A DNA stretch of 64,000 bases from Pseudorhizobium endolithicum (GTDB lineage: Bacteria > Pseudomonadota > Alphaproteobacteria > Rhizobiales > Rhizobiaceae), in contig NZ_CABFWF030000001.1 in NCBI RefSeq assembly GCF_902153245.2, forward strand, positions 434,001 through 498,000. Direction: 5' to 3'. Made by a program: the position numbers and the translations under genes. The notes below the pieces were generated by a model. That model saw nothing but the letters and a program-made list of their open reading frames with translations. It did not search any database and was not told where the DNA came from. This document shows positions 27,825-32,471 of this stretch, one piece after another. Position 1 is the first letter of the stretch; every line of letters starts with the position of its first letter.

Positions 27825-30014
27825 TCAGGCGGCCTGTACCTTCCGCTTTCTCGACAGATGCGCCACGACGTTCTCGATCATCCGCATGCCGGCGTCCTGG
27901 CCGAGCGTCATGATCGATTCCGGATGGAACTGTACCGCGGCGATCGGCTCCTTCACGTGCTCGATCCCCATGATCGTGCCGTCCTCGCTTTCCGCCGTGA
28001 TGGTGAAGTCGGCGGGCAGGGTCTTCGGGTCCGCGAAGATCGAGTGGTAGCGGCCGACCGTCACCTCGTTTGAAAGCCCCGAAAAGACGATGCCCGGCTC
28101 CAGGACCCGGATGCGAGACGGCTTGCCATGCATCGGCACGGCGAGTTGCCGCAGTTCCCCGCCATAGGCTTCCGCCAGCGCCTGCAGGCCAAGGCAGACG
28201 CCGAAGATCGGCAGCCCCTTCGCCCGAGCCGTCCTGATCGTCGTCTTGCAGTCAAAATCCTTTGGGTTGCCCGGCCCCGGCGACAGGACGACGAGATCCG
28301 GGTCGACCCGGTCGAAGATCTCCTCCGGCACCGGTGTCCGCACCGTCGACACCTCGGCCCCCGTCTGGCGGAAATAATTGGCAAGGGTGTGGACGAACGA
28401 GTCCTCGTGGTCGACGAGCAGAATCTTCACTCCCTGCCCGACCCGCGCCACGTCGCGCGCCACCTTGCCGGAATTGCCTGCACGTGCGTCACGGATTGCC
28501 GAAATCATCGCCGATGCCTTCAGTTCGGTTTCTGCCTCTTCCTCATGCGGGTCGCTGTCGTTCAGGAGCGTCGCACCCGCGCGCACCTCGGCAATGCCAT
28601 CCTTGATGCGGATGGTGCGGAGCGTCAGGCCTGTATTCATGTCGCCGTTGAAGCCGACCATGCCGATCGCCCCGCCATACCAGGCGCGCGGGCTCTTTTC
28701 ATGGTTCTCGATGAAGCGCATCGCCCACAGCTTCGGCGCTCCCGTCACCGTCACGGCCCAGGCGTGGCTGAGGAAGCCGTCGAAGGCATCCATGTCCTCC
28801 CGCAGCCGCCCCTCGATATGGTCAACCGTATGGATAAGCCTCGAATACATCTCGATCTGCCGCCGCCCGATCACCTTGACCGAGCCCGGCTCGCAGACGC
28901 GCGACTTGTCGTTGCGGTCGACGTCGGAGCACATGGTCAGTTCCGACTCGTCCTTCTTGGAGTTGAGGAGCTTGAGGATCTGCTCGCTATCGGCAATCGC
29001 ATCCTCACCGCGGCGGATCGTCCCGGAGATCGGGCAGGTCTCGATCCGCCGGCCGGAGACGCGCACGAACATTTCCGGCGAGGCGCCGACCAAGTATTCC
29101 TGCTGCCCGAGATTGATGAAGAAGGAATAGGGCGACGGGTTGATCGCCTTCAGCCGGTTGGAGATCTCCGACGGCTTCGAATCGCAGCGTTCCATGAACT
29201 TCTGCCCCGGCACCACCTCGAACAGGTCGCCGCGGCGGAAGCTCTCCTTCGCCTTCACCACCAGTTCCGCATATTCGCCGGGCTTGTGGTCGCCCTTCGG
29301 CGGCGTCACGGTGGTGCGCTGGAACGGCTCCGGCGCAATCTCGCCTGACTTGCCGGCAGTGGTCACGCCGTCCTTCTCAAAATCATAGCGGTCGATCCAG
29401 GCCTTGGCCGCATGGTGGTCGACGACCAGGATCTCGTCCGGCAGGAACAGCACCATGTCGCGCTGGTCTTCCGGCCGCTGCATGGAAAGCTTGATTGCGT
29501 CGAACTGGAAGGCAAGGTCGTAGCCGAAGGCGCCGAACAGGCCGATGGCGGAATCCGCGTCGGAGTAGAACAGGTCGACCACCGCGCGCAGCACGGTGAA
29601 CACCGTCGGCATCTTCGAGCGCTCTTCCTCGGTAAAGGCGCGGGTCGGCTCGTTGACGGTTAGTTCGAGGCGGCGGGCAGCGCGCATGCCGAGCGTCAGG
29701 TCTTCAACGGTTTTCAGCCTGTCGGCGACGAAGGCGAGCAGCACCTCCCCCCGTTCGTTATAGGCCTCGATCCACACCTTGCGGCAGTGTGATGAAATAC
29801 CGAGCGGCGGATCCACGATCGCCGTATCCCAGCGGGTATAGCGGCCGGGATATTCGTAGTTGGAGGAGAAGACGGCGCCTCGCCGCTCGTCGAGCTTGTC
29901 AACATAGCCGGAGACGGCATCCGCGTAGGGTGTCGGCCGGCGCGTGCGGGTGACGGCGATGCCGCCCTTGGTCTCGTAGGTCTCCGAACCGTCGTCCCTG
30001 ATGATCGTCACCAT
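27825..30014 (-). CDS. trpE(G): fused anthranilate synthase TrpE(G)
   Basis: A 729-residue fusion of TrpE (residues about 1-500) and the TrpG glutamine amidotransferase (about 525-729), the rhizobial form and the same length as the S. meliloti enzyme. The TrpE part contains the [24 protein letters not shown] and [20 protein letters not shown] signatures; the TrpG part has GVCLGLQ with the nucleophile Cys and VQFHPES with the catalytic His. It makes anthranilate from chorismate and glutamine. The Met at 30014 is preferred; an in-frame upstream Met at 30056 overlaps the attenuator terminator. A leader peptide with three adjacent Trp codons and a terminator precede it. Confidence 0.97.
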
Positions 30015-30054
30015 TTCCTGCTCTCCGTTTCCCTCACCCGAAACCGCGGACAAC

Positions 30055-30084
30055 AAAAAAGCCGCCTCGGTTTTCGGGCGGCTT
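30055..30084 (-). terminator. trp attenuator terminator
   Basis: On the minus strand, AAGCCGCC and GGCGGCTT form a stable stem with an AAAAC-type loop, followed by a run of six T. It lies between the leader peptide and trpE(G), so it is the intrinsic terminator of a transcription attenuator. When tryptophan is plentiful the leader is translated without stalling and this terminator forms, giving a short leader RNA. Confidence 0.88.
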
Positions 30085-31334: not shown

Positions 31335-32246
31335 CTAGAGATGAAGATCACCTGAAGATTCCGGCTGGTAGATCACCTTCTCTATCCGGATGCGGCGCGT
31401 TCGATCCGTCACCATCCAGTCTATGGCATCACCTTCCTGGTAGCCCAGGATCGCTGTGCCGATGTCGGAGAGAACCGACAGTTTTCGAGCTCGGTCTTCG
31501 GCATCTTGCGGATAAACGAGAGCGACTTCCTCTCGCTCGTCGTCGAGATGCAGGACGACCCTGGAATTCATGGTTACGACATCGCCGGCAACACGCTGAG
31601 GCTCGACGACGATGGCTCGCTCGATCTCGTGTTCGAGGTCGACCCTGGGCGCCTCTTCCTCAAATGCCATCAGGCTCTGGAGCCGGGCCTTGTCAATCTC
31701 GGTCACATAGATCTCGGCTGAACCTGCCATGGCGCCGTCGCGCAGAAGCTGGCGATAGCGGCCAGCGCTCATCGCCAAGGAATTGAGCGTAGGCGTTTCG
31801 CGTTGAAGATGAAAGCCGCAGCGCTCGAAGCCCCTCAGCGAGCGCGTGTTGTTCGGGTGGATCTTGGCGACGACATTTTCGGCGCGCATGTCGAGGAAGG
31901 CGAGCTTCAGGCCCTCCCGGATGGTGCTCCCGCCCAGCCCCTGCCCCCAGTTGTCGTGCTCGCCGACGACCAGGACGATTTCACAATCGGCGCCGCTCTT
32001 GACGAGCCGCACGAAGCCGACCGGGCGATCGCTTCGGTCGTAGGCCATGAAGAAGCGACCACCCTGATTGAACAGATGCGTCAGGATCGGCATCTGAGCC
32101 CGATCGACAGCCTGTTCGATGAACCGGGAAACGCTGCTGGAATCGCTCAGGTAGCGCGTGACCCGTTCGTCTTTCATCCAGTTCATCAGGGTGAATGCGT
32201 GCGTCCGGGTGATTTCCGGACGCAGCGAAATAAAAGGCTTGTTCAT
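31335..32246 (-). CDS. GNAT acetyltransferase fused to an Rnk-like domain
   Basis: A 303-residue fusion. Residues about 1-165 form a GNAT domain: VLVVGEHDNWGQGLGGSTIREGLKLAF is motif A (with Q/G-x-G-L-G), and NNTRSLRGFERCGFH is motif B. Residues about 170-303 match the nucleoside diphosphate kinase regulator (Rnk) / GreA-GreB C-terminal family: AEIYVTEIDKARLQSLMAF, RVVLHLDDEREEVALVYPQDA, LSVLSDIGTAILGYQEGDAIDW. Rnk binds RNA polymerase near the secondary channel. The fusion is in one continuous frame, so it is not a sequencing joint of two genes. AAAGGTGGCG precedes the ATG at 32246. Biological role unknown. Confidence 0.85.
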   Translation of the reverse strand: MNKPFISLRPEITRTHAFTLMNWMKDERVTRYLSDSSSVSRFIEQAVDRAQMPILTHLFNQGGRFFMAYDRSDRPVGFVRLVKSGADCEIVLVVGEHDNWGQGLGGSTIREGLKLAFLDMRAENVVAKIHPNNTRSLRGFERCGFHLQRETPTLNSLAMSAGRYRQLLRDGAMAGSAEIYVTEIDKARLQSLMAFEEEAPRVDLEHEIERAIVVEPQRVAGDVVTMNSRVVLHLDDEREEVALVYPQDAEDRARKLSVLSDIGTAILGYQEGDAIDWMVTDRTRRIRIEKVIYQPESSGDLHL

Positions 32247-32471
32247 CTTCGCCACCTTTGGTCGCAAGAATGAAAGCCTGTCACAGTGTGTGTACCGTGC
32301 TGGTTCTTTCGGGGGAGTGCTGAAAACAGGAAAGCTCCTTTAGCAAAGATCCACCCGCGATGGCCAGCGGAGAAGCGCATCCTCATATGCCGCCGGCGCA
32401 AGCTGCCTTGCTGTCCTTCCCTCCTTTGTCCCCAATCCGCCCGCGGCTACCGCGACAGTTGAATCCCTAGG

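Follow-up and report, generated by a model that had tools for sequence, protein, structure and literature searches.

The locus described here is best set against the acetyltransferases of the SpeG/AAC(6') fold group, the Gre/Rnk proteins, and the structured leader RNAs that precede the genes of the latter. On the Gre/Rnk side, the leader RNAs of greA and rnk function as transcription attenuators (PMC2965389); the S124L substitution in E. coli GreA, at the residue adjoining P125, strongly impaired antipause activity while RNA polymerase binding was kept (PMC7527559); and the function of E. coli Rnk was still unknown as of a 2015 review (PMC4598747). We analyzed a stretch of 64,000 nucleotides from Pseudorhizobium endolithicum (contig NZ_CABFWF030000001.1, positions 434,001 to 498,000), called the window below, which encodes a GNAT acetyltransferase joined to an Rnk module, a kind of module known to contact RNA polymerase. 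An Rnk module welded to an enzyme, spread across classes and provided with a dedicated RNA control element, would offer two direct handles: the compound or condition sensed by the leader, and whatever the Rnk module holds the enzyme to.

Results and Discussion

The fusion gene and its authenticity

The GNAT-Rnk fusion was encoded by one unbroken frame on the minus strand of the window (31335-32246), which ran from an ATG at 32246 to a stop codon ending at 31335 and specified 303 aa. The mechanical list of open reading frames placed the start seven codons earlier, at a TTG at 32267 (310 aa); the ATG was preferred because relatives align from it. The N-terminal part matched Acetyltransf_3 (PF13302; residues 9-146, 31809-32222) with an E-value of 7.8e-15 and 56.2 bits against a cut-off of 25.4, and the CoA-loop region of this GNAT domain read W100-G101-x-x-L104-G105. 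Rnk_N (E 2.7e-5; residues 178-214, 31605-31715), which formed a short helix pair in the predicted model, and the GreA/GreB/Rnk C-terminal domain (GreA_GreB, E 1.4e-13; residues 222-293, 31368-31583), also seen in the predicted fold, followed in the domain order of Rnk, both over their Pfam cut-offs, and together delimited a complete Rnk module at residues 178-293. The NCBIfam Rnk equivalog (PRK05753.1) covered residues 177-302 at 100.5 bits, below its cut-off of 109, and scored 100.4-101.2 bits in all three fusions scanned (the window and two others).

A sequence-only reading of this DNA had claimed one continuous frame holding a complete GNAT domain and a complete Rnk-type domain, and the frame, the Pfam matches, and the conserved relatives bore this out. 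Its coordinates, 31335-32246, were right; the minus strand and the conserved leader just upstream were absent from it, and the leader RNA is the element that is new relative to the conserved fusion. The domain survey suggested in that reading recovered full-length fused relatives across three proteobacterial classes. Their presence in other assemblies excluded a misassembled frame, and the objection that the homologues might be separate genes failed within the fusion family, as the separate Rnk and GNAT relatives found reached at most 43% identity once decayed fusion remnants were set aside. An assembly artefact or a chance open frame, a reading for which we found no support, was thus refuted for practical purposes by full-length relatives in many independent assemblies.

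Distribution, selection, and lateral movement

Full-length relatives of 54-88% identity occurred in alpha-, beta-, and gammaproteobacteria. Two genomes besides the source carried one among 397 genomes of the order Rhizobiales (77% and 65% identity), and none of 35 further members of its genus had a full-length relative. In a scan of one genome per species, 128 stretches encoded a relative and 80 loci were kept, 79 of which matched residues 1-302 or 1-303 at 67-88% identity while the remaining one (L071) stopped at a contig end. These loci were retrieved by peptide patterns with degenerate codons, by which the amino acids near the start, and not the codons, were selected for. Hosts included Mesorhizobium, Aminobacter, Devosia, Asticcacaulis, Achromobacter, Bordetella, Diaphorobacter, Pseudomonas, and others; of the 199 Pseudomonas genomes sampled, 25 had the fusion. 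Five of 388 sampled Pseudomonadota matched the leader model (see below) strongly, namely the source genome and four others, and in all four a full-length fusion (54-68% identity) adjoined the match. Every one of 30 fusion genomes checked held 3-6 places with a GreA_GreB domain, the fusion included, and the fusion is therefore an extra gene. Our search of titles and abstract openings, with subscription literature mostly outside its reach, found no paper on a GNAT-Rnk fusion. In the automatic annotation of NCBI, such proteins go by a name of the type "bifunctional GNAT family N-acetyltransferase/nucleoside diphosphate kinase regulator."

Both halves were under purifying selection, dN/dS across 10 pairs being 0.052-0.123 in the GNAT portion and 0.049-0.163 in the Rnk portion. 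A tree of 82 sequences was rooted at the midpoint only; in it, the 53 Pseudomonas rows grouped together (100/98) inside a larger group with two Achromobacter rows (100/99), and further Achromobacter rows fell outside that larger group. The nesting of Pseudomonas rows within Achromobacter suggested transfer between classes, and the sequence comparisons as a whole strongly suggested lateral spread of the fusion gene. Decayed copies were also encountered: a remnant of the fusion C-terminus on a Pseudorhodobacter turbinis plasmid (NZ_CP039965.1; L054 4001-4154) kept 87% identity over ca. 51 residues, and two Pseudomonas genomes contained remnants, one of them alongside an intact copy. An IMG/VR contig (L191, 270-1215) carried the leader and a fusion copy that, read by eye, was apparently broken close to the start and had phage tail-like genes next to it.

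The 79 of 81 loci in which the gene could be placed showed no generally conserved neighbor, operon, or partner gene. In 13 of the 79, all in Pseudomonas (e.g., L083, L087, L106), the immediate neighbor was a frame read as glmS, and two other recurring neighbors appeared in 4 and 3 loci. The site downstream of glmS is the Tn7 attachment site, a known insertion hotspot. A defense system was sought with PADLOC, with no match at E 0.1. In the window itself, a long minus-strand frame at 27825-30056 resembled a fused anthranilate synthase TrpE-TrpG by eye.

The conserved leader RNA

The sequences upstream of the fusions were strikingly alike from alpha- to gammaproteobacteria over an element of ca. 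46 nt with the core GAAAGAACC-NN-CAYGG-loop-CCRTGA-NN-GGCTTTC. In the window, alignment and a covariance model (R1, built from 38 leaders) placed the element at 32267-32314 on the minus strand, where hairpin A pairs GAAAG with CTTTC, CC with GG, and CACGGT with ACTGTG. The modelled element ended about 16-27 nt before the ATG, and its loop and spacer lengths varied by indels. Conservation as an N-terminal protein extension was considered and rejected, as the frame of the block relative to the ATG differs between alpha- and gammaproteobacteria; because indels before the ATG shift its frame, the block is non-coding.

Across 59 sequences, 94.4% of the 701 cells of hairpin A were paired, against 19-47% in slid versions. 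Double-change cells numbered 24, compared with 6.7 in shuffles, and none of 500 shuffles reached 24. In the inner stem U-A had become C-G, and in the outer stem A-U had become G-C, each in 12 sequences; the double changes were confined to two pairs, possibly reflecting few events, and neither the count of changed pairs (2, vs. 2.2 in shuffles) nor the number of further pair types (7, vs. 8.0) lay above shuffles. The hairpin slid by +3 came close in covariation score (0.114 vs. 0.119), yet was only 42.5% paired. Within the limits set by so few changed pairs, the alignment indicated a conserved and covarying, aptamer-like hairpin. Isolated leaders folded as hairpin A in three of three cases, with z-scores of -2.5 (window), -4.5 (L069), and -4.7 (L102). 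When twelve further Pseudomonas leaders were cut before the start with some upstream sequence kept, the outer stem formed in four only (L204, L206, L207, and, bulged, L200), and in many of the twelve an upstream CGGTT competed for AACCG. The leader of one of these genomes (G569; L204) retained GAAAG/CTTTC with a changed inner stem, and two P. protegens leaders were degenerate (25 and 34 bits; z +0.5 for L079).

With E-values of up to 10 allowed, the window leader matched no Rfam family, and the four matches of the L069 leader were all to eukaryotic families and all below the gathering score. A sigma-70 promoter scan of the window leader found none, and no terminator-like site lay on the leader's strand within the element. 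By eye, Pseudomonas and Achromobacter loci (e.g., L083, L102) shared a further conserved, promoter-like block, TTCGGC...TTAAAAT, ca. 15 nt before the leader, and alphaproteobacterial loci shared a different block around TTTGCTA upstream of it.

The leader and the fusion gene were tightly associated in the genome sequences searched. Of 30 genomes searched, 29 had a leader match with an E-value of 0.1 or less; the top match lay each time just upstream of the fusion, and the sole genome without one (G519) contained a fusion remnant only; the four extra matches were three reverse-strand self-matches and one weak place. Of the 25 Pseudomonas genomes with the fusion, 24 had the R1 element immediately before it, some of these leaders (e.g., G447, G449) being themselves members of the model, vs. 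0 of 174 other Pseudomonas genomes; the 25th, G569, had its match at E 0.06 in the 30-genome search. Among 297 genomes of the order, strong matches occurred in the source genome and G237 only. Five weak matches with E-values of 0.01 or less compared with about three expected by chance, all five stood without a fusion frame, and the one in L187 lay inside another open frame. A regulon under the leader was considered and rejected, there being no second strong copy in the genomes searched.

A second helix was predicted over the start of the gene. In the RNAalifold consensus, helix B joins AGGCUUUCAUY to the start codon and codons 2-4; its 5' strand (AGGCTTTCATT, 32269-32279) overlaps the 3' strand of hairpin A, and its 3' strand (32235-32247), placed by the consensus and the codons, covers ATG AAC AAG CCT, which was fixed at synonymous sites. 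Helix B was almost invariant, with 96% of 649 cells paired and one double-change cell, and 173 of 500 shuffles equaled its score; because of this near-invariance, covariation does not test it. Support of another kind came from the codons. The second codon was AAC in 75 of 76 sequences with Asn there, the third AAG in 77 of 77 with Lys, and the fourth CCT in 81 of 82, in an analysis of 82 of the 83 sequences, one having been dropped by a completeness and motif filter that required Pro4. Six of the other eight conserved prolines were mostly CCG, vs. CCT at P4. P4 was more fixed than any of the 56 conserved four-fold codons past codon 14 and K3 more than any of 60 two-fold codons, of which 2 were as fixed as N2; at F5, beyond helix B, the share of the top codon fell to 0.76. 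The case for helix B thus comes from conservation and from synonymous constraint at codons 2-4, not from covariation.

Folding of the leader together with the start region paired the start codon through helix B in seven of seven stretches, with z-scores of -3.7 for the window and -2.8, -3.0, -2.9, and -3.1 for L057, L068, L069, and L102, respectively; the fold was no better than chance in L086 (z -0.9), and L079 had z +0.5. In a first set of 14 leaders, which overlapped those seven, helix B formed in 11, hairpin A in L109, and neither in L071 and L105. Minimum-energy folds of the twelve further Pseudomonas leaders contained helix B in seven (L196, L197, L201, L203, L205, L206, L207), and it was not formed in L198, L199, L200, L202, and L204. 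A conserved leader with no Rfam match that is predicted to fold over a start codon and is tied to one gene family is a ready candidate for riboswitch discovery.

The position of the element directly upstream of the gene, with one strong copy per fusion genome, would also suit an autoregulatory or operator site, at which the fusion or another protein would bind the mRNA hairpin or the palindromic DNA and repress the gene. The palindromic design is consistent with such a site, as inverted repeats could be DNA operators, and the attenuators reported for greA and rnk (PMC2965389) offer a parallel. An upstream operator does not predict synonymous constraint extending into codons 2-4, however, and the indels that change loop and spacer lengths, together with the possible occurrence of the element before a GNAT gene without an Rnk half (next section), also spoke against it. 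We consider an autoregulatory or operator site doubtful, though worth keeping in view beside the preferred reading of control at translation.

The GNAT half

An AlphaFold2 model of the whole protein, built with 56 fusions, had a mean pLDDT of 68. A Foldseek search with this model returned NAT9, AAC(6')-Ib, and SpeG for the N-half, with E 2e-8 to GNAT structures, and E. coli Rnk (3BMB) at rank 47 for the C-half. By sequence, the N-half showed weak similarity to AAC(6') and MbtK structures. The CoA loop was partly degenerate as judged from the alignment, residue 103 being Asn in 34 of 56 fusions but Gly in no more than 11, and all 56 fusions had Phe140 at the site of a Tyr in the aligned AAC(6') chains. 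These two features would fit a GNAT half that senses acetyl-CoA or acyl-CoA without catalysis and thereby tunes the Rnk module. Such a sensor appeared improbable to us, as the acyltransferase MbtK, aligned from the PDB, also has Phe at the Phe140 position, the GNAT half was under strong purifying selection, and a stand-alone GNAT relative exists; for the same reason of MbtK, the absent Tyr was rejected as proof of inactivity. In the reading that we prefer (see below), the GNAT half probably acetylates an amine, on a small molecule or a protein.

The stand-alone relative was found in a gut "phage" clone, MT836484 (unverified and unannotated), as a 176-aa GNAT with 36% identity over 165 residues and no Rnk half. 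A leader-model match (L208 2913-2951) stood 25 nt before its start; it was weak (21.3 bits), with E-values of 3e-5 in 3.8 kb searched without filters, 6.5e-4 in 82 kb, and 0.011 in 1.3 Mb. Because chance matches of 22-26 bits occur in whole genomes, the case for this leader rests on its place. The core AAAGAACCGUC...GAAGGGCUUU was retained with a different inner stem, and the fold with the start region, in which GGCUUUU pairs with AAAAGCC across the start, did not exceed chance (z -1.3). No further stand-alone copy was found in the plasmids or viral contigs searched. As a lead rather than proof, the clone suggested that the leader may belong to the GNAT half and that the GNAT may be the core function. 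The GNAT frame of the clone (L208 2977-3507) lay 0.5 kb after a long frame (849-2465) that looked serine recombinase-like by eye.

The Rnk half

The C-half was modelled with AlphaFold2 over residues 169-303 using stand-alone Rnk rows (pLDDT 89.7), and its best PDB match was E. coli Rnk (3BMB, TM 0.84), followed by the Nitrosomonas Rnk-like protein, with GreA, GreB, and Gfh1 clearly lower. The short coiled coil of the Rnk fold was present (helices 15-26 and 32-42 of the domain model), and by sequence the nearest solved structures were Rnk-like 2PN0 and 3BMB. The main departure from Rnk lay at residue 261 (codon at 31464-31466, minus strand), which aligned with E. coli GreA P125. This position was Asp (54) or Glu (2) in all 56 fusions, whereas all 23 stand-alone Rnk and all 9 GreA proteins from genomes of the same order had Pro. 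Pro was likewise found in 15 of 15 further stand-alone Rnk proteins from Pseudomonas and one betaproteobacterial genome, obtained from 20 fetched regions of which two held fusion remnants and three had no match. The change argues against a plain carry-over of Gre/Rnk docking, and docking may be weaker in the fusion. We do not claim it as proof of lost RNA polymerase binding, as a tandem Rnk copy (L003 1845-2429) also has no Pro. That copy is the second of two tandem Rnk-like genes in the source genome (L003 1198-1764 and 1845-2429) and has, by eye, Leu for the usual Pro; adjacent pairs of Rnk matches were also seen in relatives such as G009, G019, and G050.

The sequence-only reading had interpreted the join as acetylation directed to RNA polymerase or its partners, or as regulation of the GNAT by polymerase binding. 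In such an arrangement, the Rnk module would bind the secondary channel of the polymerase and bring the GNAT to it, or binding would control the enzyme, and the C-half, a full Rnk module in both sequence and predicted structure, is what this would call for. The replacement of Pro by Asp/Glu at 261 in 56 of 56 fusions counted against it, as did the other GreA_GreB-domain places in 30 of 30 fusion genomes and the weak leader match that accompanies a GNAT with no Rnk half. The polymerase-directed reading, acetylation aimed at RNA polymerase included, is unlikely in our judgment.

Proposed mechanism

The reading that we prefer, with a probability of roughly 0.4, is a mobile single-gene acetyltransferase unit that is controlled by its leader at translation and carries an Rnk docking module. 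An acetyltransferase of the SpeG/AAC(6') fold group is fused to the Rnk module, and the leader, as it emerges from transcription, would fold into hairpin A. Once the start region has been made, the 3' strand of hairpin A would re-pair with the start codon and codons 2-4 as helix B, and translation would be shut. The gene would stay on as long as hairpin A was stabilized, be it by a ligand, a protein bound to it, or a stalled ribosome. The Rnk module would then dock the enzyme on RNA polymerase or, given the altered loop, on a changed partner. The sequences themselves show the fusion and its conservation, the covarying hairpin A, the close link between leader and gene, and the synonymous constraint at codons 2-4; the action of A and B as a switch, and any inducer, substrate, or docking, are what we infer.

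A more specific version is speculative and, we think, less likely than the foregoing: the leader could be a riboswitch of a class not yet described, sensing a compound that enzymes of this GNAT subfamily handle. It would travel from phylum to phylum together with the GNAT, which stands by itself in gut bacteria and is Rnk-fused in Proteobacteria, and would mark an inducible detoxification or resistance-like gene, with the Rnk module tying the enzyme to the transcription machinery.

Comparison with known systems

The N-half resembled SpeG and AAC(6') in predicted fold and by a weak sequence match. It differed from the AAC(6') enzymes in carrying Phe where the aligned chains carry Tyr, and it fell far under the cut-off of every AAC family, the best score being 24.7 of 400 bits. 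The C-half aligned over its length with E. coli Rnk (3BMB) and the Nitrosomonas Rnk-like protein (2PN0) at 30-37% identity and shared with 3BMB the fold and the short helix pair that replaces the long Gre coiled coil. Unlike either, the fusion adds a GNAT, has Asp/Glu for Pro in the loop of GreA S124-P125, and is an extra gene alongside other Gre-domain genes.

The leader shared with translational riboswitches a compact hairpin before the gene and, if helix B forms as predicted, a mutually exclusive fold over the start codon; this leader could instead be protein-bound or ribosome-controlled. With the leaders of greA and rnk it shared a structured 5' position before a gene of the Gre/Rnk kin. 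Those leaders are terminator-based attenuators (PMC2965389), whereas the fusion leader has no terminator-like site within the element and no Rfam match, apparently acts on the start codon, and may go with the GNAT half.
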